64,000 nt of DNA, from assembly GCA_916048055.1 (NCBI GenBank), contig CAJZHL010000029.1, positions 962,013-1,026,012 on the forward strand, given 5' to 3'. Shown here piece by piece: positions 14,208 to 64,000 of the stretch. Below the pieces are notes generated by a model, which was given only the letters and a program-made list of their open reading frames with translations, was not told where the DNA came from and made no database searches. The DNA is from Pedinophyceae sp. YPF-701 (lineage: Eukaryota > Chlorophyta > Pedinophyceae). Within the stretch, counting starts at the first letter, position 1. Each line of letters starts with the position of its first letter. The translations under genes were made by a program, and so were the position numbers.

Positions 14208-17200
14208 ATGGCCTCTCACGCGGAGGAAGCCCGGGAACCGTACCAGACCCTCGGCGCGAAGGCCAGCATGAGGTCCGTCGTGGGGTCTCGACCAAGCTCG
14301 GCTGGAGGGCTCTCGTCCCACGCCGTTGAGCGGCCCAGGCAAGTGCTCCCTCAATACACACTGCCCCCGACGGCGCGCGCCAGCGCTACGGGCTACGTTT
14401 TCGAGTAGAATGCATAGTTCTAACGAATGTCATCAGCTGGCGCATCGATTCGACGTACGTATGCGCGCACGGAGGCGCGTCGCTGCTGCCGGCAGAGTCA
14501 ATGGTCGCTGCGCGCACAAATCCGACCCGAACAGCCGGTCAATTGTGCCGCAACTTAGACTCCGCATTATGACATGCGACTGCGTCACTCGAGCTCTGCC
14601 TCCGCGCGTACCCCCCGCGCCGCCGGCACAGCAGTGCTCGCCTGTAGCATCCGCCCCGCCGCTGGACCTGCGCGACGTCGCCCTCGCATCGACACACTCC
14701 GCTCGTGCCTCCCGTCGCCGCAGGAAACGAGACGCGGCGGACGTCCTCTCGCAGCTCCTGCAGCAGGGGGTCAAGTTCATCCCAGTGTCCTTCGGCCCCT
14801 ACGTGTGCCTCGTCTTCCTCCTCCAGACGTTCGGCGGCGTCCTCTACATCTTGCACAGCCTCAGGTTCGCGTGGAACGCCGGCGCGGTCTGCTCCAACCT
14901 GGACGCGCCCCCCGCGCCGGGGGAGCACACGTGCCACGTGCACTCGCCGGCCTGCTTCCTCGACTTTCGCGTCGTCGATGACCACCACGCGACGTTCCAC
15001 CGCCGGGAGTGCTACGATACGATCAAAGAGGCCTACACGTCCATCTTCGTCTCCCCCGCGACGATCACTGCCCTCGTCCTGGTCCTGCTGTGTACGACTG
15101 GCTCGCTGCTCAACTTGTGCGAGGCCGGGAGGCGGTTCGAGCGCACGTGGCTCGGCGAGATCGGCGCGGTCCTCGTGAGCCTCTGGTGCGTGCCCCTCGT
15201 GCTCGAGGGGACCAGCGGGGCGTGGATCAACGTCGAATTGGGAGTGCCGGCGTCGTTCGGAGTGCTGCTCGCCCTGGCGAACGCGGCGTTCATGACGCCG
15301 TCGTCGGCGCCGTTCCTCCTGAGGTGGATTCCGATCGGGCTGGTGAGCGTCAGCGTGGGCGTCATCGCGGGCGTCCAGGCGTGGGAGAAGATTGCGCACG
15401 ACGACATGCCCGCGGCCCGGCCACTGTTCGCGGCGCTTGGGGCCTTCGTGGCGCCCTACATTGCCTTCGTCGCGAGCTCGTGGATGCTGTTCCCCGGCGT
15501 GCCCGTCCTGCCCGCGCGGGGGCTGTCGTGGCTCGAGCGCTACCAGTGCAAGGCCTGGGGGCAGCAGCAGCAGAGGCGTCTGCAGTCGGCCGAGGTGGAC
15601 AACATCCCGCGCGCAGCCCTCGCTGCCGCGATTTTCCTCGGTGAGAAGAACAACCGCCGCGCGCGCCGACGACGTTGCTGCGTCTTGCACACCCCCCCGA
15701 ACAAACAGTCGACCGTGTCGCCCGCATCCTCACCTGGCACTGGCGCGGTCCGCTCCTGCAGGTCTGCCAATTATAGCTGGCATCGGTGGGAGCGTGGTGC
15801 TGACCTATTTCCGCGTGGTGGTGGACTTGTACCCCGCGCTGATATCGGGGGGGATCTTAATGATGGCGGGGGGCGCGATGCGGCTGCTCTACATCGCGTG
15901 CTTGCTGCAGAACCACGTCGTCGCGGACATCCTGCCGCCCCAGGCGTCGGCTGCGCTGCTTGCCTCGGCGATCCGGGACCAGGACGGCCTGGCGTCCGTC
16001 CAGCCCGACACGAGCCGCAACAACAGCGTGGGACACCCCCTCAGCGACGAGGGGTCCGGAACACCGCGCGTGAAGCGCCGGATGTTCGGGTCCTCCATGC
16101 TCGAGGCAGTGAGGGGGCGGGGGAAGGACGGCAACCCGACGGACTGGAGTGGGACAGACTCGCACAAACAGGTCCAGTCCGACAACGGATGGGCCGCTGC
16201 CGCCGAGGGGCCCGGCCGCAGGACCGCGAGCACCGTGGTGCGGTGGGCCGAGCAAACCCACGAGTACAAGAGAAAGGATTCCGAGGAGGACTGCCGCGGG
16301 AGCACGGGCAAGGTGCACGCGGGGGGCGCCCGCGCAAAGCCAGGTCTGAACGGCACGCACACGCTTGTAGGCTGCCTTGATGTGCGACGCGCTCGCTGAC
16401 GGTACAGCTCTCTTTGCGTGCTTTGTCGTTGTCTTTGCTGCTGGGCGGGGGTGGGCGCTGACGCAAGCCGAATTTTGCACGTTGCTTGCAGGGGCGCTGG
16501 AAGAGCAGACGATGCTTTCTGCGAGCCCGCTCGCGGGCCAGGCCGGCAAGTACATGAGTGCCACGCTCGAGGAACTCCGCAGCGACTCGGATGGCCCACC
16601 GCTTGAAGTCACGCAGAGCGCCTTCCCCGGGCACCTCAACGGCGCCGTGGGACGGGACGCCGGCGCACGCTTCAAGTTCGAGCGCAACGGCCCGTTGTTC
16701 GCCGGCCAGGCTGCGAAGAAGGCGTCGGGTTTCGCCCGCACTCGTTTTTCGAAAAACAACCGGAACTCGCCTGGCAGGCCTGGCCCCGTCGTTTCGGAGG
16801 ACGCCGTCGAGCCCGGTCGCAATCCGCCGAACCCACGTCGAGGCCTCTTCCGGGGCGGCGGGCGGGCCAAGGTGCACGTCAGCCAGGGCAGTCGGATCCA
16901 GAAGCTGACACGGCGCAGCGCCGAGGAGGGCAAGCACGGGCTCTTGCGCATCCTGCCGTGGCTGACGGAGCACGAGCCCGGCGAGCCGAACAGCGTCGAC
17001 ATCCGCAAGTGGTGGAAGCGCACGGTGGACAGCCTGATGGTCACGCTCGAGGGCTTCACGCGGGCGGGGCAGCAGCTCACGCCGGGGACCATGCGCCCCG
17101 CGCTGTGCAAGCGCGACCACGCGGAGGTCACGGTGGTGTTCAGCGACATCGTCGGCTACACGAAGATGAGCAGCACCCGGCCTGGGTCGGAGGTGCTCGA

Positions 17201-18037
17201 CATGTTGAACGAGTACTTTGGAAGACTGGACAAAATGACGGACCAGATCGGCGTGTACAAGGTGAGGCTCTCCTGCGGCCGCGGGCCGCTGTGCAGCGCG
17301 TGCGAGCGCCCCGCGCCCCCGCGTTGCGACGGCCGCAGCCCGAGCAGTGCGTGCCGACGCCCGCTGTGCAGGTCGAGACGGTGGGCGACGCGTACGTGGT
17401 GGCGTGCAACCTCTTCGAGCCGGACGAGTTCCACCAGGTGTCCGCGGTGCTCATGGCCGAGGCGATGCTGCGCGTGGCGGCGACGATCCCGGCGGGCGAG
17501 GGAGGCGAGGGCCTTCGCATTCGCGTGGGCATTCACACCGGCGCCCTGACCACGGGCGTCGTGGGTCAGAAACGCAAGCTCGTTACCCTCGTGGGCGATA
17601 CGATGAACACTGCGGCGCGCATGGAGCAGCACAGCCGCCCGGGATGCATCCGTGTCTCGGACGCGACGTTCCATGGCCTCCCCGAGGCGCTGCAAGAGTT
17701 CTTCGTCCACGAGCACATCGAGGCGAAGGGCAAGGGCAGGATGGACACGTACATGTTCACTCCAGGGATCACCGAGCACGGCGCGGACGACAGCGCGGCC
17801 GCGGCCAGAAAGCTGGCTGCAGGCACGTCGATGCTGCACCTCCTGAGCGCGAAGAGGACCGGGTCCCGCGGGCCCAACAGGCAGTCGCTCGAGCTCCTGA
17901 GGAAGACTCCGGGCCCGTCCAAGCGGTTCTCGATCGACAGAATGAGTCATTGGCAGAACCAGGCAGTGCCGGCCCGGACCGCAGCTCGACAGCGCTTCAA
18001 CAGCACCACTCCCTCCGTGCCTGAGGACTCGAGCTGA
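14208..18037 (+). CDS. Multi-pass membrane protein with C-terminal class III nucleotide cyclase
   Basis: Five exons (14208-14338, 14724-15640, 15762-16343, 16492-17261, 17372-18037) join with consistent phases into 1,021 residues. Exon 1 starts at an ATG in good context (GCCATGG) and ends at a textbook GC donor (AG|GCAAGT). Residues ~50-450 carry about eight hydrophobic helices with a Cys-rich loop (CSNLDAPP, HTCHVHSPACF), then a cytosolic linker, then the cyclase domain. That domain has the first metal Asp in VTVVFSDIVGYTKMSS, KVETVGDAYVVACN with the second metal Asp and the Glu typical of guanylyl cyclases, and GDTMNTAARME with the transition-state Asn and Arg. The second purine-selectivity position (Cys in guanylyl, Asp in adenylyl cyclases) is Thr, so ATP or GTP preference is open. 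A single such domain would work as a homodimer. An alternative is two genes split near 16377-16399, but the phase-matched intron 16344-16491 favours one. Confidence 0.8.
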
Positions 18038-25584: not shown

Positions 25585-28500
25585 TCAGTGTTCGAGGATG
25601 GAGAGCGACGATCTAGTCGCGTGCGACAGCCCGGGGCTGCGCGCCGTGCCCGCCACGGACCCGCGCCTCCGCGCGTCGGCGTGCGTGGTGCCTGTGGCCC
25701 GCGAGCGCGTGGTGGCCGTCGCCAGAGTGCGCGGGAGGTCCGTGGGCAGCGGAAGGGCTACGGCCGCGCGCACCGCCTCCCCGAGGCCGTCCGCGGTGCG
25801 CGTAGCCTTCTTCCCGGCGACGCCGGGCGGCGCCGCGGCGCTCCGGCTGCGCGTCGACACCAGCGAGGCCAGGGCAAACTCCCCCGCGATGCCCTTCAAC
25901 TTGAACTGACCGAGGTGGTGCGCAACGACCGTCGTCCTGGCCATGATCCAGTCGGGGATGTCCAGGTGCTGGGAACCGGATGCCGAGGCCGGGCGGCCGC
26001 GGAGGTCCGCGGGGGGGCGTGCTGCGATCGACAGTCTGCTGAGAACGGATCCTTCTCTGACTGACGGTTTGTGGGACGCGGCGCGGCCCGCATCGATGCT
26101 GCTGCGGAATGTGACGCGCGCCTGCAGCCTCGCGCCGGGCGGCGCGCGGTGCTTGAAGCGGTTGTCGGGCCTGACTTGCCTCATCTCCGCCGCCGCTGCA
26201 GACGAGGCTGTTTGGAGCCCCGAAGGCAGCTCGAAGCTCCCACGTTGCGTCGTCTTGTGGACACTTGCGTCCCCGCTGCTCAGGTGCTCGCACTGGGCGT
26301 CGGACGCGCCAGGCCCTCCGCTGCTCCGGGCCTCACGGTGACAGTTGGAACCCGCAGGGGGAGCGACAACGACGCGCGCCGCCAGCTGGGCGCTCGCAGG
26401 GCCCAGCGCCTGCCGCGCGTCGCTCGCCTCCGTAACCCACGCCACCTCCAGCGGCCTCACCCCGCCCTCGTCGCCCAGCAGCGTCGGCTCGCGGCTGCCG
26501 TCAGCGCGCGCGGCCCCCACGCACGCGAAGAAGCCCGGGTCCACCGCCGTGCGCCCGCCCAGCTCCGCCAGCCCGTCCGCGAGCTGGCCGGCCGGCGCCA
26601 CCACGTGCCCCGGCGGACACACGCCGTAGCAGATGCGCGCCGCGCGGTTCACCACCGGCCCGAAGTAGTCCGCGCGCCCCGACGTCCCGTGCGGCATCAC
26701 CGACGTCACGGGGCCCGAGCAGATGCCCACGCGCGCCTGCAGGCCGTGCGGCGCGTACGGCACGCGGTCGCCGCGCTTCGGCGCCAGGCTCGCCAGCCGC
26801 GACGGCCACGGCATCTCCGGCAGCACCTCGTTCAGGCACAGGCCCCACAGCAGCGCGTCGCCCACGCTGTGGAACGCCAACATAAACGACCCCACCATCT
26901 CCTGACACTCGTACCCGTTGAAGCGCGGCAGCGTCAGCCGCACCGCAGCCGCAAACACCTCCACCGCGCGGTCCGCGGTGCGCGCGTCCAGGCTCGCGAT
27001 GTCGTCCAGCTTCCACGCCGCGCAAAACACAATCGCCACGGGCGTCTGCGCCAGCGCCGCAGCCGTCGCCGCGCAGCACGTCGGGCACGACGACACCGTC
27101 GCCGCGCTCAGCTTGTCCACGCGCGCCGCCGCGTGCGGGCACTGCTTCAGCTGCGGCGCCACGGAGCTCCCCGCCGTCGCCGGCGCGTGCCAGTACCCGC
27201 CCTGCCGCAGCTCGCTCGACACCGGCGGGGGCTCCCGCCCAGCGCGCTCCTCCAGGAACGGCACCAGCGCCTGGTACAGCTGCACGGGCGCGTCGCCCTT
27301 GACGACGGCGTAGTGCCCGAGGTCGAGGAAGCGCAGGTCCTCGCGGGCGGGCGCGTCGCGGGCCAGCGGGAAGTGCGCGGACGGTGCGCTGGGCTTCGGG
27401 GAGAGGAACAACGGGACGCTGGAGGGGCTCTTGACGGCGACGAAGCGCATGTCGTTCTGGGACCCCGCGGTGAATGTGACGGTGGCCCTGGCGTCGCGAG
27501 AGGCCGCTGCCGTGAGGGCGTCGGCCGTGGCCTGTGACTGAGATGTGAGTGCACCGCCCAGGGACGTGGTTGTGTCCTGCCCGCCGGACGTGGCGGCCGC
27601 GACGATGCGGGGCGGTACGCAGAGCGATGGGCATCGTTGGATCTCCGCGGCCGCCGCTGCCGTCCCTGTGGACAGCTCCTGAATGTTCGGTCTCTGGTCG
27701 CCCGGGTTTGGAAAGCCCCTGGACCCGCGAGAACGATTGCTTGCGCCCCGTCCTGGCCCTGAAAATGATAGCTGCAGCCTCTGCGACGCCATGTCGCCCT
27801 CGGCAACGCTCTTGCAGGCAAGCAGTGCATGGGACTTGCGCCTCCGGAGCCCAGAGCTCGCGGACAAGCCCCGCGAGCGCTCGCTGAAAGATCGCACCAG
27901 GCCGCGCATCAGGCGCTCGACCTGCCGGTACGGAGCCTTCGACGCGATCGCGCCCCACGTGCCGGCCATGCTGCTCTGCACCCGCGCAAACGTCCGCTCG
28001 CACACCAGCACCTGCCCCCCGTGCGCCATGTCCAGCATCGCCGTCACGTAGTCCATCACCTCGCCGACGTACTGGTTGCGCCGCGTGACGCGGCTGGTCC
28101 GCACCCCCTTGCAGTGCCCCGTGGCGACGGCCATGCGCACGCAGAGCCCGCGGTACAGCGACGGCGCGAGAGCGGCGGCGAGCTCGCCGCCCGACGCCAT
28201 CGTGCCGGCCGTTGAGAGCGGTCCCGGCTCGAACGATTGTGTCGGCGTGGGCCTGGACAGACATGCAGCACCTGGCAGTTGCTCGTCTGAAGCTGGGCGG
28301 CTGTCCCGACCGCTGCCCCGCTGCCCGACCGGCGGGCGCGCAAACACCCCCTCGTCCTCCTCCGGCCACGGCGCCGCGTACAGGGCGAGCTGCACCGTCG
28401 CGCAGTACGCCACTGCGTCGCTTGCAGTGTGGAACGCGATCAGGTACGAGTCCCCCTCCGTGTTGACCTCGTAGCCGTGGAACGCCGGCAGGTACCGCCG

Positions 28501-31500
28501 CATGATCGCGTCGTGCACGGAGATGGCCTTCTGCATGGTGAGGGGGTGGTTCTCCCACGTGTCCGTCGAGCCCTCGATGTCGGTCTGCACCATCGTGATC
28601 TCGCGACCGCCCGTGGGCGGCCCCGCGCGGCGGCGGTGCTCCGCGACGGCCTTGGCGATGCGGTGCCGCAGCAGGAACGCCGCCAGCCCTGCAGTCGATC
28701 GGCGGGGCACACAGGCGAGTCAGCGCCACGTCGGCAGGTCGACAGGCCAGTGCACACGCGGGTGACGGTCGCGGCACTCACCCAGGCAGACGAACAGCAC
28801 CGCCACGCCCCCGCACACCACAATCAGGCTCACGTGCCACTGCGCGATGCCGCTGTCCTCCTGCACGCAGATCATCATGCGCGTGCGCACGTGGTCCGCC
28901 ACATACGCCTCGTCGTCCACGGGGAAGCCTGAGGCGGTGTCGTTCATCACCGCGGCCCACCGCGGCCCGTAGGACGCCTGCGCATCGACCCACGCGGCCA
29001 TGCCGCCGCCGTCGCACATGCAGCCCTCGAAGTTGTAGTAGTCCGGCGACAGGAGCGCAAACAGCGTCGTTTGCGCCACCGCCACGACCATTGGGCACAG
29101 CAGGAGCCCCTGGGTGCGATCGCCAGAGAAGGTCGTTCCCATTGTAGATGGACCCATGGGGACGGCCGTGTACATGGTCGCGAACCTCAGAAACTCCGGC
29201 AGCAGCTCGCCGCGGGAGTTCCGCCTCGACAGCGGGTGCGTCATCAGGCTGCCGAAGTTCGACAGCACCCGCAGGTCCTTCAGCACGCTCAGCGTCTCTG
29301 GGATAGCACCGAAGACGTTCGTGAAGGTCACGTCGACCTCCCGCAGCGTCTCGCTGGCGCTGAAGTCCGACGGCATCGTCCCCGTGAGGCCAAAGTTCCC
29401 GCCGACGCGCAGCTCCGCCAGGCGCTGGGTGGAGATGGGGTCGGGCAGGGTGCCGGTGAGCTTGTTGTTGCCCAGCCGGACGCTGACGAGGTGCGGCGAC
29501 GAGGCCAGGATGGCAGGGATCTCGCCGCCGATGTCATTGCCGCTCAGGTCGACGGAGGAGAAGCCGCTGACAAACATGCCAGGAACCAACACGCCCCGCA
29601 TGCCACTGTCTGCGAGAGACAGCTCTCCCCGGGGGCGGACGAGGTACGGGATGTTCTGAGGCGAGTTGTGCGGGTGCGGAGACCACGCGACGGTGTTGTT
29701 CAATGCGTCGAACTGGTGCAGCCGCGGCAGGGTGGCGAACGCGTGGATGTCTGGAATGCGCATGTGGTTTTCGGGCAGGAGCAGGCTGGTGAGGCCGACG
29801 ATTTCCTGCGAGCATGGCACGGGCGCAGCCCGACATGTGGGGCAGTCGATGACAGTGAGTGGTCGATGCACGCAAGACCGCCCCAGGCAGCCTGCCAGAC
29901 TTGGTCAGACCGCCCCGCAGCACATGGCGCTGTGTTCGTGGCGCACCTGCATCCCCTCGGGCAGGTCGCCGCTCAAGTGGTTGTGCGACAGATCCACGTA
30001 CTGCAGCCGCTGGTGTAGCGTCCACGCCCCCGCGACGCCGCTCCCCGGCAGCGTCCCTGCCATTGCGTTGTGGGCCAAGTCCAGCACACGCAGCAGGTGC
30101 GCGTCCAGGACGTCGCTCGGCAGCGCGCCGCCGACGCCCGCCGCGCGCGCGGTGAACACCTCCAGACTCGACGCCAGGTCCGCGAACACCCCCTCTGGGA
30201 TGGTGCCGCGGGCGGCATGGTCGTGGTCGTGCGACGAGGGTGCGACCACCATCGCGACCCCGCCGGGCTGGACGCAGCGCCTGCCCGACGGCGCATGCAC
30301 ACTTCCAACGTGGCCTGCGCAGCATCGAACAAACGAACGGCGTTGTGCGATCGTTCAACATGAGAGGCATCTCGGGTGCACTCACGGCCGTCGGTCGCAG
30401 CCGATCCCGAGGACGCAGCGGAAATGAGATGAGAGCCAAGTGCCTCCCTCACCGTCCTTAGTGTCGGGCAGCAGCGTCTGCGCCGCCGAGCAGCACGTGA
30501 CTCCCTCCCAGCAGCAGTGGTGCAGGGCGCCATGGTCTGCGTCGTGATGCTCCAGGAACGGAGACAGTCGCTCGAGCGCGGCGCGCTGCCGAGCCTGGCA
30601 CGCGCCGCCGCACGCGGGCGCCGCAGCGCTCAGCGACGCGTCCAGGCGCCCGAGCAACACCCCCGCCTCGTCAGGGGAGCGTGAGTTCGGCGTGTCGCTC
30701 AGGACCGAGTCCGGGACCCAGGTGACGCCCTGCGGCGGGACGGCGCGGCGGAGCGGGAGGATGAGGCCGCGCTCGCTGTGCCGAGGCCCGGAGGGAGCGC
30801 CGCCAGCACTGGGTCGAGGGCGCGGCCATGCGCGGGCAATGTGAGGGCCACCTGCGCGTTGCTCCGGAACCACGACTCCGTGATCTCTTTCGCGCCCCAC
30901 TGGAGGTCGGATCCAGTGTCCTGGAGCGAGAGTGCCCGTATTCCCGACGACTCCAAGAGCGCCTGCAACCACCACGACAGACGTCCCAGGAAATGGCTGG
31001 GAGCCCGCCCGGTGCGCCCCGCACACCCTAGACTGCCTCCTAGCACCGAATTCGCGGTTTGCCGTCCGCGTAATCGTGCTGCTGGCCGCCAATACTCGGC
31101 CGTGCCACCCACCAACCGACAGGGGTCACGGAGCTGCTGCCGACCGCTACGGGGGGATTCCCGGCCCGACGGGGCAAATTCAGGAGCGTCTGGTGTCATG
31201 AGACCCTCGTGCGACGAAGCATCGGGCGTGATTCGCACCTGACAGGAGTCCGCGTCATGGGCGAGCAGTGCCCTTCCAATAGCATGCTCGCTCGCAGCAC
31301 CTGCAGTTGTCGGGGATCAGTCGCGCCTTTTTGGATACAACGAGCTCCAAAGCTTCCGTCGCGATCGCGAGGCTCGCGTGGTGCGCCCGCATGGCGGCAG
31401 GATTGCAAGCCCTGTTTTTTTCACACAGGTGCCGCGTTGCGTGGATGCAGGGCCGCAAATTGCTCTGTCGTCCGCCGAACTGGTCGCAAGAGATCAGGGA

Positions 31501-31722
31501 ACCGTGCCGAGCGATCAAGTACGAAAGCGTCGCCGCCCGCAGGCAAGCTGGCGCAGGAACAGCAGTGGGCCAGGGCGAGCTGTGTACGGGGGCATCGCGG
31601 CGTCTCGGTTCGATCTGTGGGACGCGAGCGCCGCGGAGCCGCCACAGTGCTCGCGGGCGCGTGTATCTCGCACCTCGGATCAGGAAGGAGGCGCCCAGGA
31701 GGAGCGCCACGAGCGCTTGCAT
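25585..31722 (-). CDS. Receptor-like protein: LRR ectodomain, one membrane span, tandem class III cyclase domains
   Basis: Phase-consistent exons are 30729-30453, 30314-29947, 29805-28782 and 28688-25585; an upstream exon ends at 30852. A likely first exon (31722-31674) encodes a signal peptide, MQALVALLLGASFLIR; the link between these two (about 31079-31673) is unresolved. Predicted total is near 1,680 residues. An LRR N-terminal cap (ALERLSPFLE..., HCCWEGVTC) precedes plant-type LRRs (LRVLDLAHNAMAGTLPG, LQYVDLSHNHLSGDLPEGM, VSVRLGNNKLTGTLPD), then a span (WHVSLIVVCGGVAVLFVCLG). Cyclase half 1 has both metal Asp motifs (MVQTDIEGSTDTWE; YEVNTEGDSYLIAF), closest to fungal Cyr1-type enzymes, but its Asn/Arg helix reads YVGEVMDYVTAML. 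Half 2 has lost the metal motifs (VFCAAWKLDD; ECQEMVGSFMLAF) yet keeps RADYFGPVVNRAARI, with the adenine-type Asp and catalytic Asn/Arg. Adenylyl cyclase activity is inferred; a long disordered C-terminus follows. Confidence 0.82.
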
Positions 31723-32628: not shown

Positions 32629-35600
32629 ATGGAGCTCGGGCCGTCTGCATCCCAGAGAGAGGCCAATATGCCGGTCGCCACGTCGATGAGGGGGAACCCG
32701 CTCTACGATCAGGACGCTCCGGACCTGTACGCGTCCAATGCGAGCGGCCGTGCCTCGCGGGCGACGAAGACTGGCGCTCCTGGCCTTGGGTGGAAGGTCT
32801 GGGCGATCATCGGTGCGCTCGCATTCCGTCCCGCGACCGGCGCGGTCTCGCAGGGTCCGTTAAGTGCACAGACGCGCGAGATGCACCGCTGAGCTCGCCC
32901 CCGCGCTGCGTGCAGTGCTGCTCCTGCTGGTGATTCTCGGGCTGGCCATAGGCCTCGGAGTCGAGGCCAACAAGGATCGCAGCGCCGGCACAGGCTTCGA
33001 CCGGGGCACGAAGACTGTCAAGGTCGCACAAGCGTCCGTGGGCTCCCTCGACGGATACGAGGTGCGCGCCAACCGCCCATCACGTTTTTTCCCCGGCCAG
33101 GGGCGCGGTCACGAGCCATTTTGCCCAGTCTACGCCCACGGCCGGCCGCTCGATCACCGGCGATCAATCAGGATGCGAGCATCGCCTCCAAACCGCCCGT
33201 CCGCAGCGCCCAGCACGTCGCCTCCCTCGCCTCTCCTCCTCACCGGCCGCCCCCCCCCCGAGACCGCAGAGCGCGGGATCCCTCTTCGAGGGGGCCGGAT
33301 CCTGGTCGCTCCTGCGCGGCACGCTGCCCTCGGACGTCCTGGTGTCGGACGCCGTCGCGTTGGCCATCGGCGGCGACCGCGTGCTCTTCCCGGGGGGCAA
33401 GCGGGTCATCAGTGTGGCCAACTCGACCGCGGGGGCCTCGGCGGACACGCACATCTGGGACGCCGTCACGGGCCTGTGGACCGACACAACTGACTCCGGC
33501 GCCCCGCTCGCGTCGATGCCCGAGCCCAGGTGCGCGGCCACGCGTCCGAAAGTCGCGCCCGCTCCACGCGCTGCGCTCCGTAGCGGACGCGCCCGAGCGC
33601 ACAGCGAGCGCACCGCGACAGCAGGCCCGCCGCGCGCGCGTCCGCCGCGCTCCGCACGTCCCTGCTGCACTTGGCCAGCAACCCTGTGGCATGCGAAACG
33701 TCGCCACGTCACGTGCGGGTGCAAGGTGGCGCCTTGGCGCCCGCGTCTGCTTCGTTTCTGCTGCCGCGTTTTGACTCGTCGTGTGCCCTCGCGGTGCGCA
33801 GGATGCGCTACGCGGCGGCGCTGTTCGACGGCAAGGTGTACGTCATTGGCGGGTACGATGCGACCGAGACGCAGAAGGACACGACGTATGTCTACGACAT
33901 CGCGGCGAACACGTGGACGGCCGGGGTGCGCCCGCCTCGCCGACGGCGCGCTGTTGCCGCGCCCAGCAACCACGTTGTCCCCTGGTTGCGCCCTCTTCCC
34001 GGCCGAGTCGCCCGTCCCCGCCACCTCTGCTGTGCAGCCGCCGCTGAGTCTGGGCACGCGGGGCGACAGCTGCGCGGCTGTGGTCCGGGGCAGGCTGTAC
34101 GTGGTGGGGGGCTTCGATGCAAGCTTTACTCCGCTGGCTTCGGTCGAGCGGCTGAGCGAGGACGGGGAGCGATGGGAGCGCGTGGCGGACATGCCGACGC
34201 CGCGCGGGGACCTGCAGTGCGCCGAGGCCGGAGGGGAGCTGGTGGCGGTGGGGGGGTGGAATGACGTCACCTTGGAGGACTTCACCCCTGACTCATTCGT
34301 GACCGCCACCGAGTCGTTCGATGGAAGCCGCTGGCAGGTGCGGGTCGTGGCTGGCACCGGGCAGGCCGAGACGAGTTCGCGCGGTTGTTTGCTGACCGTG
34401 CTTCGTGTTCGAGTTGATGTTGTTGTGTCGCAGGTGCGGGCGCCGATGCGATACGCCCGCGGGGACCACGCGCTCGTGCGCGTCCCCGGGGACCGCCTCG
34501 TGGCACTGGGCGGCGAAACGCACTTCGAGGGCCGGCGCACGGAGGTGTCGCTGCACGCGGTGGAGGAGTATGACTTCGCGTCAGACTCGTGGATCCAGCT
34601 GGCCCCGATGACGCAGTCGCGCTTCCGGGCCCTCGCGGCGTACGCGGACGGCGCCGTGCACGTGTTCGGCGGTCACCAGACCTGCGAGTCTTCCTTCGGT
34701 GAGCGCGCACGCGCCACCGAAGCACATGTGCTATCACAACGCGGATCGCGTGCCCCGCCCCGCAGCCCGCGTTGCGCCACGACTGAGCACACGCCCCCGC
34801 CCCGCCTCCGCAGACCCTCCGTTCTTGAGCAGCTGCCCGTCGACCGCCGTGGAGGGCATCCACTCTCTGTTTCTGCCCGCGCACCCCAACGTTTTCGTGT
34901 ACGTCTCGCGCTCGCCCGAGACGGCCGAGGACGAGGCGAACGACATGGCCGCTGGCATCGTGTCCGACGATGTGCGCCTGAGCCTCCTCCCCGCCGCCGT
35001 GGTCCCGGAACGCGCGCCGTACGAGCACGTGGGGTTCCTGCAGGCAGGGTCCGGGTACTGGGTGACGAAGAACCCTGCGCCGAGCGGCCGTTCGGGGCAC
35101 TCCACGCACCTGCACGACGGGGCGGTGCACGTCCTGGGCGGGACTGACGTGGCGGGGGGGGTGGCGACGGGGGGACTCAAGTACACGGTCGGACTGGATC
35201 GCTGGACGGCGGACGGCGCGGGACTCCCCGCGGGCGCAGCACGCACGTGGCATGCGTCCGCGCAGATCGGTTCGAAGGTGTTCCTCGTGGGGGGGTTTTC
35301 TGCGCTGTCGACTGACGCGCGGCTCCACACCCCCGCAACAGAGACCGTCGTGGTGGACCTCGCCGCCGCCGGATCCGCAGGGAACGTCTCCGCGACACAG
35401 ACGGCCCCCGCTGCGCGCGCCGGCTGGTCGACGCACGGGTGCGCGGCCGCTACTGGGGGGGTGGTGTTTTACGCGGGGGGGTTCACGATCGACAGCGACG
35501 CAAGCAACGCCCGCGGCTTCCCCGTCCTGGTCCCCGAGGCGCACGTCGACGAGTTCGATCCCGCAGGGGGCGTGTGGCTGCGCCTGACGCAGGGGCTGTC

Positions 35601-62054: not shown

Positions 62055-64000
62055 ATGGCGGACCTCACCGGGCGCAGGTACATCCAGGAGCTCGTTGAGC
62101 GCGCGGGCGCGGGCACCTACCGCGACGAGGTGGAGCGGGCGTGCCGCGCACTGGGCGTAGCGAACCACCGTGCTGCGCTCGCCGCGAGTGAGAGCGACTT
62201 CAAGGACTACTGGAGGGACGCGGGCCGGGCCGTGCCGCCGTCGGTGCCCCGCGCTATCATCGCTGCCGTCCAGAGCGTGGAGCAGGAAGCCGAACAGGCA
62301 CGTGCGGCGCAGGCGGGGGCGGCGCACCAGAGCGGCACCGCGGACAGGGCACACTGCGAGACGCTGGACAAGCTCCGAGCAGCTCTGGCGGACCCCGCGG
62401 TCCTGGTGCGCCCCGCAGGTCGCTCTTGTGCTCGGAAGCCGGACGGGCACGGCGCACGGGGGCGGCGTTGGTGGGCTGCTAAGCGCTGTTTGCCACGCGA
62501 TGACGGAGAGTCGAGGACATACACCGCAGTGCCGCACTGTTTGCGCCGCTCGTCGCGCCAGCTGGCGTCGTATCCCGCGCCCTCATAATTGCGCACACAA
62601 ACTGTGGTCGCGCTTGGCGTGACGCGTCGCGTACAGCGCGCACGTGGGGCCGCGACGCCGCGCCCACATACCGACGCTGCGTGCGCGTCCTGCGCCCGCC
62701 CAGCCGTGCAGCACCATCTGCGCTGTGGAGTACCTGCCTGTGCTGACGACCATGGTGCGCGGCATCGCGGGGGTGCACGTGCAGGACATCGATCTTGGAG
62801 GCGGCACGATCACGTCCGACGCCCCCGTCTCGCTCACCATCGCGCGTGCCGGCCTGGCGCTGCGCAACGGGACGCTGGAGGGCATTCGCCTGCACGCGAC
62901 TGTGGACGCACATGGCCTGCTGCTGGACAGCCTGACGGTCCAGAAGTACACAGCTCCGAGGCGCGGGGGCGGTGAGCGCGCGTCGAGCACCCTGCACCTC
63001 CGCGGAGACGTCACGGTGCTGCACAGCTGCAGCAGGACGCACATGTGCACGAATGCTCATACTCGCCCGCTCGCTCCCACGGCACGTGCAGGTCGACAGG
63101 GCATGGTGCAGATATCCGGCGCATGCGACGTCGTGCTGCGCAGCTGCAAGCTCAACGAGTCCCATGCCGGCACGTCCGGGCTGCGGGTGGAAAAAAGTGC
63201 CAAGGTGTGAGTCGTGCCGCCAACACGCGCACCGCAGCTCGCCAGGTACGTCGCAAGGGTATGATCGTCCGCTGTCGTGGCACGTCCGATGGCGTGTCCG
63301 GACGCGCATGCGCAGGTGGAGGTGGAGGGCGGGGAGTGCTGCCGCAACAGTAAGCGCGGCATGGAAGCGTACGACGAGGGCACGGCGGTGACGGTGCGGG
63401 GCGCGACGTGCAGCGAGAACAAATACCAGGGGATAATCGGGAGTCGTGCCGCAATGGTGGAGGTGGAGGGCGGGGAGTGCCGCCGCAACGGTGGGTCTGG
63501 CGTGACTGCGAAGGGCGAGGGCACGGCGGTGACGGTGCGGGGCGCGACGTGCAGCGATAACGAAGGCCACGGGATGAAGGTGTTGGGTGGTGCGAGGGTG
63601 GAGGTGGAGGGCGGGGAGTGCTGCCGCAACCACAAGTCAGGCGTGGCTGCGTATGACGAGGGCACGGCGGTGACGGTGCGGGACGCGACGTGCAGCGAGA
63701 ACACCGGCAGCGGGATACAGGTTGGTGGAGGTGCGAGGGTGGAGGTGGAGGGCGGGGAGTGCTGCCGCAACAACAAGTGCGGCGTGGTTGCGATGGACGA
63801 GGGCACGGCGGTGACGGTGCGGGGCGCGACGTGCAGCGACAACGAACACCACGGGATACAGGGAAGCCATGGTGCGCAGGTGGAGGTGGAGGGCGGGGAG
63901 TGCTGCCGCAACCAAAAGTCAGGCGTGGCTGCGTACGACGAGGGCACGGCGGTGACGGTGCGGGGCGCGACGTGCAGCGAGAACGAATACCAGGGGATAC
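62055..64000 (+). CDS. Right-handed beta-helix repeat protein (3' truncated by window edge)
   Basis: Phase-consistent exons are 62055-62405, 62704-62971, 63092-63204 and 63316 to beyond 64000. The N-terminus (~117 residues) is helical and charged (RRYIQELVERAGAGTYRDEV, SVEQEAEQARAAQ) with no signal peptide. Then the chain turns into short beta-strand rungs (VHVQDIDLGGGTI, ISGACDVVLRSCKL). From 63316 it becomes near-identical 47-residue tandem units containing VEVEGGECCRN and GTAVTVRGATCS(E/D)N, each about two helical coils with regularly placed Cys. Such parallel beta-helix (PbH1-like) arrays occur in pectate-lyase folds, adhesins and large algal gene families. Function here is unknown; the missing 3' part may carry the deciding domain. 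The first intron border (62406/62703) is the least certain. Confidence 0.7.
63316..64000 (+). repeat. Exact 141-bp coding tandem repeat (47 aa), about 4.9 units in window
   Basis: Units start at 63316, 63457, 63598, 63739 and 63880, always 141 bp apart with no indels; the last is cut at the window end. The first ~33 bases (coding VEVEGGECCRN) and the central block (coding GTAVTVRGATCS) are nearly identical in DNA, while two short spacers per unit vary. Confidence 0.95.

Follow-up and report, generated by a model that had tools for sequence, protein, structure and literature searches.

The stretch analysed here, 64,000 nucleotides of contig CAJZHL010000029.1 from the green alga Pedinophyceae sp. 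YPF-701 (hereafter the window, to which position numbers refer unless a contig is named), carries on its minus strand a gene for a leucine-rich repeat (LRR) receptor whose single chain contains two halves of a nucleotide cyclase, CHD1 and CHD2. The gene spans 25585 to ~30.7 kb, with a tentative 5' end. Both cyclase halves are encoded by the open reading frame (ORF) 25585-28719 (1044 codons), in which Pfam Guanylate_cyc (PF00211) matches two stretches (E 1.7e-15; 57.5 bits against a curated cut-off of 21.9), and the two ORFs that lie upstream, 28723-29904 and 29908-30354, each match LRR_1 above its threshold. Splicing of three GT-AG introns (138, 141 and 93 nt) gives a product of 1590 residues, counted from the tentative 5' edge at 30729, without an internal stop and with the domain order LRR cap, LRRs, membrane span, CHD1, CHD2. 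The eight top hydropathy windows of this product all lie in one span, so that two hexahelical membrane domains are not present, and a Pfam scan of six pieces that allowed E values up to 1 matched no PP2C domain. The parts of the gene are as follows.

25585-25587, minus strand: stop codon of the receptor gene
25585..28688, minus strand: last exon, with the second part of the membrane span, CHD1, a long insert and CHD2 (ORF, Pfam, splice join)
28663..28833, minus strand: membrane span, interrupted by an intron (2.77, the top 19-residue Kyte-Doolittle mean of the spliced product)
28689..28781, minus strand: 93-nt intron within the membrane span (GTGAGT...CTGCAG), whose removal fuses FVCLG to LAAFLL in frame
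28782..29805, minus strand: exon with LRRs, the post-LRR signature, a juxtamembrane Cys region and the first part of the membrane span (Pfam, splice join)
29191..29220, minus strand: post-LRR signature NSRGELLPEF, kept in paralogues
29806..29946, minus strand: 141-nt intron (GTGCGC...TCGCAG; splice join)
29947..30314, minus strand: exon with the first LRRs (Pfam, splice join)
30315..30452, minus strand: proposed 138-nt intron (GTGAGG...GCGCAG), from the reading frame and likeness to paralogue C9
30453..30729, minus strand: exon with the LRR N-terminal cap, 5' edge tentative (splice join; like motif in C9)
30490-30522, minus strand: LRR cap motif HHCCWEGVTCC, with the counterpart HCCWHGVSCC in paralogue C9
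31255..31722, minus strand: ORF with a proposed signal peptide, MQALVALLLGASFLIRG (from 31722; by eye)

An earlier, sequence-only reading had described this gene as an LRR receptor with tandem cyclase halves and one membrane span, a description that the Pfam matches and the single hydrophobic span bear out. It had also extended the gene over 25585..31722, which holds up to ~30.73 kb; from 30.73 to 31.72 kb, including the ATG of the proposed signal peptide (31720-31722), no verifiable reading frame joins to the rest of the gene.

The two halves of the window copy have lost different catalytic residues, and the full catalytic set is present only when CHD1 and CHD2 are added together. The relevant positions are listed below.

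27930..28611, minus strand: CHD1 core (Pfam and profile)
28579..28581, minus strand: CHD1 metal Asp 1 (QTDIEGST), kept (residue table, alignment)
28450..28452, minus strand: CHD1 metal Asp 2 (NTEGDS), kept (residue table, alignment)
28039..28053, minus strand: CHD1 transition-state Asn/Arg positions, now Asp and Ala (residue table, alignment)
27249..27339, minus strand: CHD1 C-terminal strands (LDLGHYAVVKGDAPVQLYQAL), past a disordered insert of ~170 residues (structure model)
26499..27039, minus strand: CHD2 core (Pfam and profile)
27019..27021, minus strand: CHD2 metal Asp 1 position, now Ala (FCAAWK; residue table, alignment)
26890..26892, minus strand: CHD2 metal Asp 2 position, now Gly (EMVGSF; residue table, alignment)
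26635..26670, minus strand: CHD2 adenine Asp (26668-26670), Asn (26647-26649) and Arg (26635-26637), all kept, in DYFGPVVNRAAR (residue table, alignment)
25854..25929, minus strand: CHD2 C-terminal strands, including the Lys of FKLKG (25894-25896), past an insert of ~190-200 residues (structure model)

In a joint alignment with animal domains, the Asp pair of CHD1 falls on D396 and D440 of AC5, and the Asp, Asn and Arg of CHD2 fall on D1018, N1025 and R1029 of AC2, with the opposite partners lost in each half.

The same pattern recurs throughout a large paralogue family. Searching the genome (27.9 Mb, 32 contigs) with the window cyclase ORF and the window LRR ORF, we detected 19 loci with such a cyclase pair, a count that leaves out a single short match on C31. 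Two of these, C5:357819-363050 and C13:7516-12747, differ at 1 of 5232 bases and encode an identical protein, and therefore 18 loci are counted as distinct; the pair either arose by a recent duplication or reflects one region assembled twice. The window LRR ORF matches all of the 19 loci except C19 and C8 (17 in total), and it also hits C28:2496260 (a 166-aa frame), which lies outside the cyclase loci. Matches to the LRRs, CHD1 and CHD2 share one stop-free frame in 9 of the 18 distinct loci (C12, C13, C17, C1, C28:479k, C4:526k, C9, C30 and C4:727k), and both paralogue frames scanned with Pfam, C12 and C9, contain LRR and Guanylate_cyc. Of 13 paralogue frames read for it, 11 contain the post-LRR signature NSRGExLPE, as do loci C28a and C28d; C10 has the variant NSRDELLPE, and among the paralogues checked the signature is absent from C1, C8 and C19. 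Given the single-frame paralogues, the Pfam content of C12 and C9 and the shared signature, the LRRs and the cyclase halves belong to one protein, as the sequence-only reading had supposed.

Across the 18 distinct loci, CHD1 retains both metal-binding aspartates (18/18 each) and lacks the Asn and Arg in every case, 17 of these being taken from the residue table and C28d from a hand alignment, in which the second part of its CHD1, read in a different frame, shows His and Ala at these positions. In CHD2, Asn and Arg are present at all 18 loci and the adenine Asp at 16, the remaining two having Glu; the first metal Asp is gone from all 18 and the second from 16. For the residue table, four loci were read partly from an additional frame or exon, among them C28b (CHD1 Asp 2 from C28b2), C20 (lost CHD1 positions from C20b) and C8 (CHD2 Asp, Asn and Arg from C8b). 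In alignments covering 13 of the 18 loci for CHD1 and 17 for CHD2, entropy is zero at the CHD1 Asp pair and at the CHD2 Asn and Arg, and 0.52 at the adenine Asp, against column medians of 1.55 (CHD1) and 1.98 (CHD2); the lost partners have entropies of 1.21-2.62 (percentiles 32-87). Residue retention is thus one-sided, one set being held and the other not. The complementary loss noticed at first in the window copy, and its likeness to the C1/C2 division of animal adenylyl cyclases, with the metal Asp pair in the first half and Asp, Asn and Arg in the second, consequently extend to the whole family. Chance or a misreading of the split site was considered and is ruled out by the 18 distinct paralogous loci that share it, although these do not represent 18 events, since the loci share descent.

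Taken together, these data make it likely that the window gene encodes one of ~18 single-span LRR receptors with a tandem class III cyclase in which the two halves form one working site. CHD1 would supply both metal-binding aspartates, and CHD2 the Asp that recognises the base together with the transition-state Asn and Arg, probably adding a phosphate-binding Lys from its C-terminal LKG strand. The halves would associate head to tail, either in the same chain or across two receptor chains, giving one working site and a dead mirror site. Ligand binding or dimerisation at the LRR ectodomain may be relayed through the membrane span, and the relayed signal may alter the packing of the halves and hence the rate of cyclic nucleotide synthesis. 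The activity, the product, the pairing geometry and the control by a ligand are predictions from the gene architecture and the kept residues.

Several observations weigh against this proposal. The second metal Asp of CHD2 is retained in C9 and C28d, and the lost positions vary like ordinary columns, no more. In 14 of the 17 CHD2 rows the residue that pairs with the adenine Asp is Gln instead of Lys; two rows have Arg and one has Lys. In the AlphaFold model each cyclase domain is well folded and both match cyclase structures; however, the known dimer pose is not reproduced, with 310-336 residues aligned to single-chain tandem cyclases at a root-mean-square deviation (rmsd) of 15.6-17.1, and the Foldseek row for AC9 gives an rmsd of 22.9. 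The long inserts in CHD1 (~170 residues) and CHD2 (~190-200) are unusual, have pLDDT below 50 in the model, and only 20 alignment rows stand behind it.

The missing dimer pose bears directly on where the working site would lie. The same chemistry could operate between two receptor chains, CHD1 of one meeting CHD2 of the other, with ligand-driven dimerisation as the switch, as has been proposed for trypanosome receptor cyclases. The disordered stretches inside the halves leave room for pairing in cis or in trans, the cis dimer is not seen in the single-chain model, and the closest solved relatives are receptor cyclases that, according to passages of PMC6027212, require their domains to dimerise for activation. 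Yet every locus that was read carries CHD1 and CHD2 in the same gene, an arrangement that pairing in cis explains most simply, and we regard the trans arrangement as a possible but unlikely alternative.

For a working site shared by the two halves, in cis or in trans, the product is most likely cyclic AMP (cAMP), judging by the Gln/Asp base pocket, because the adenine Asp is kept in CHD2; the choice of substrate is not certain, since the Lys partner is mostly Gln. That Gln would also fit a guanylyl or mixed cyclase, an option that we consider rather doubtful. The adenine Asp is kept in 15 of the 17 aligned rows, with Glu in two, and the Lys/Asp pair is found in all five bacterial relatives described below (the Asp, unlike the Lys, was partly demanded by the search pattern). 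Guanylyl cyclases have Glu/Cys or Glu/Ala at this pair, according to passages of PMC6592433, and five of the seven single-domain cyclases of the same genome have its Glu, at the Lys site; none of the seven has Lys/Asp. Since the single-domain cyclases lack that pair, the LRR family appears to be the better candidate for a cAMP source among the cyclases aligned. The genome also has 31 class I phosphodiesterase matches and 36 cyclic nucleotide monophosphate (cNMP)-binding matches, 31 of them over the cut-off (both counted by exon, not by gene), and a cNMP-binding and a kinase domain share one frame at C28:227454-229574 and C11:302404-304038. Machinery for reading and removing cyclic nucleotides is therefore present.

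Other cyclase matches were also observed. One lies in the window at 16371-18037 on the plus strand; it is an intron-split, single-domain gene (Guanylate_cyc at 4.7e-10 and 4.6e-27) whose base pocket, read by eye as Glu/Thr, resembles that of guanylyl cyclases, and directly upstream of it is a frame with several hydrophobic stretches (by eye). At C1:1962483-1963688 and C5:329747-331000, kinase and cyclase matches share one open frame, the build of animal receptor guanylyl cyclases.

Each half being incomplete alone, the cyclase part might instead be a dead scaffold on an LRR receptor that signals otherwise. This is improbable, since a domain that had lost its function would hardly retain invariant residues, and the residues of the proposed single site are invariant in the 13 CHD1 and 17 CHD2 rows while the lost partners vary. 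Finally, although the window copy has four or more exons and a tentative 5' end, its spliced product is free of internal stops and 9 of the 18 distinct loci hold LRRs, CHD1 and CHD2 in one stop-free frame, so that the single-frame paralogues rule out two separate genes, and the broader alternative of two genes or a pseudogene is very hard to credit.

The likeness of a one-site receptor cyclase of this kind to the animal enzymes raises the question of descent. Among the matches listed, the solved cyclases nearest in sequence and fold are trypanosome receptor cyclases: the CHD1 and CHD2 profiles first retrieve GRESAG4.1 and 4.3 (E 4.4e-32 and 8e-17), followed by mycobacterial Ma1120, and animal adenylyl cyclases are not among the solved-structure matches at E 0.01 (CHD1) or 0.1 (CHD2). 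The suggestion of the sequence-only reading that CHD1 looks closest to fungal Cyr1 thus finds no support among these solved structures. A scan of bacterial and archaeal genomes, using patterns that demanded NRAAR or GRxDYFGP, gave 49 pattern matches and from these five relatives, L044-L048, in Planctomycetota and Proteobacteria. These single-domain cyclases have motifs like those of the algal halves (TDIEDST..LWE, GYEVKTEGDAF, GRTDYFGPVVNRAAR and LKG) but, in four of the five, hold all six residues in one domain; their Asn, Arg and Asp are partly there by design, because the patterns demanded them, which does not apply to the Asp pair. The planctomycete L047 lacks both metal aspartates but retains the Lys, the Asp, the Asn and the Arg, which makes it a bacterial half of the CHD2 type. 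No relative was found in a scan of viral contigs, and a CHASE2 search of the algal genome gave no match (the control matched in 2 of 14 genomes).

In a tree of 46 rows, from which six CHD1 and two CHD2 rows were left out as intron-split or misaligned, CHD1 forms one clade (15 rows, support 100/98) and CHD2 another (17 rows, 100/100). Both stand beside the bacterial rows, and a 100/100 branch divides them from AC5 C1, AC2 C2 and the seven single-domain cyclases of the genome. The approximately unbiased (AU) test rejects the groupings of CHD1 with AC5 C1 (p 7e-186) and of CHD2 with AC2 C2 (p 5e-7), for groups chosen after inspection of the tree, which contains one C1 and one C2 sequence, long branches for AC5 C1 and CHD1_C8, and an odd composition in AC2 C2. 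A sister relationship of CHD1 and CHD2 has support of 83/85, and trees that place either one with the bacterial rows pass the AU test (p 0.467 and 0.197). Descent from animal C1/C2 is accordingly rejected by the AU test and the tree, within the limits of a single C1 and a single C2 sequence and of groups named post hoc. Neither half groups with animal C1/C2, and most of the relatives carry a complete set within a single domain; an origin of the one-site split separate from that of the animal adenylyl cyclases is therefore very likely. We read the C1/C2-like division as having probably arisen once, before the family spread. It seems somewhat more probable than the contrary that the alga evolved its own split-site adenylyl cyclase, apart from animals and apicomplexans, from a homodimeric domain of bacterial or trypanosome type, that this domain joined an LRR ectodomain and a membrane span in a single fusion, and that the product multiplied to ~18 receptors, as a cAMP-making counterpart of plant LRR receptor kinases, the comparison having been made with the animal rather than the apicomplexan enzymes.

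Elsewhere in the window, a ribosomal protein L3 gene lies at 22.9-24.6 kb on the plus strand (PF00297 matches its later ORF, with no Pfam match on the first), and its N-terminus resembles a plastid transit peptide by eye. A Kelch-repeat ORF at 32952-35147, plus strand, apparently continues in later frames. Roughly five tandem copies of a 141-bp unit (82% matches) occupy 63309-64000 and run up to the contig end; a repeat-protein gene may therefore have been cut by the assembly.

The receptor family would wire LRR sensing directly to a one-site cyclase, is large enough for comparison, and offers a direct way of finding out what cAMP senses in algae. Since complementary loss is seen among its paralogues, in a lineage separate from that of the animal enzymes, rules for the passage from a two-site homodimer to a one-site heterodimer may become testable with independent evolution. 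Among the matches listed in the open literature, titles and abstract openings name no algal receptor combining LRRs with a tandem cyclase, and other algae may well have one. Passages of the first CAPE paper (PMC5159850) note green algal class III cyclases without a phosphodiesterase domain, and passages of the second (PMC8115329) group them; neither paper contains the word 'leucine', and a paper on plant LRR receptors (PMC10834447) does not contain the word 'cyclase'.

Among known systems, the fungal LRR adenylate cyclases (Cyr1) likewise combine LRRs and a cyclase in one protein, with one cyclase domain. They are set apart here by descriptions, not sequences: passages of PMC2939053 give them no predicted membrane helix, a PP2C domain and, in most cases, a Ras-association domain, and describe LRR adenylate cyclases, from a survey of 101 eukaryote genomes, as confined to fungi. 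The single-chain apicomplexan TgATPaseP-GC resembles the algal receptor as a pseudo-heterodimer with complementary loss and differs in its inverted half order, its ATPase domain and its GTP pocket, as described in passages of PMC6592433. The animal membrane adenylyl cyclases share the distribution of residues between an N-terminal and a C-terminal half, yet neither algal half groups with its counterpart, and animal membrane adenylyl cyclases are not known to carry LRRs. These enzymes have two 6-span membrane domains, in contrast to the one span of the algal receptor, and arose when a cyclase of bacterial type was duplicated and fused (passages of PMC9552081). The trypanosome GRESAG4 receptor cyclases share with the algal receptor a large ectodomain, one membrane span, a multigene family and, among the matches listed, the nearest solved cyclase domain. 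According to passages of PMC6027212, receptors that make cAMP directly are a hallmark of trypanosomatids, and these are homodimers with one membrane span, one cyclase domain per chain and Venus-flytrap ectodomains, whereas the algal receptor has LRRs and carries two degenerate halves in each chain.

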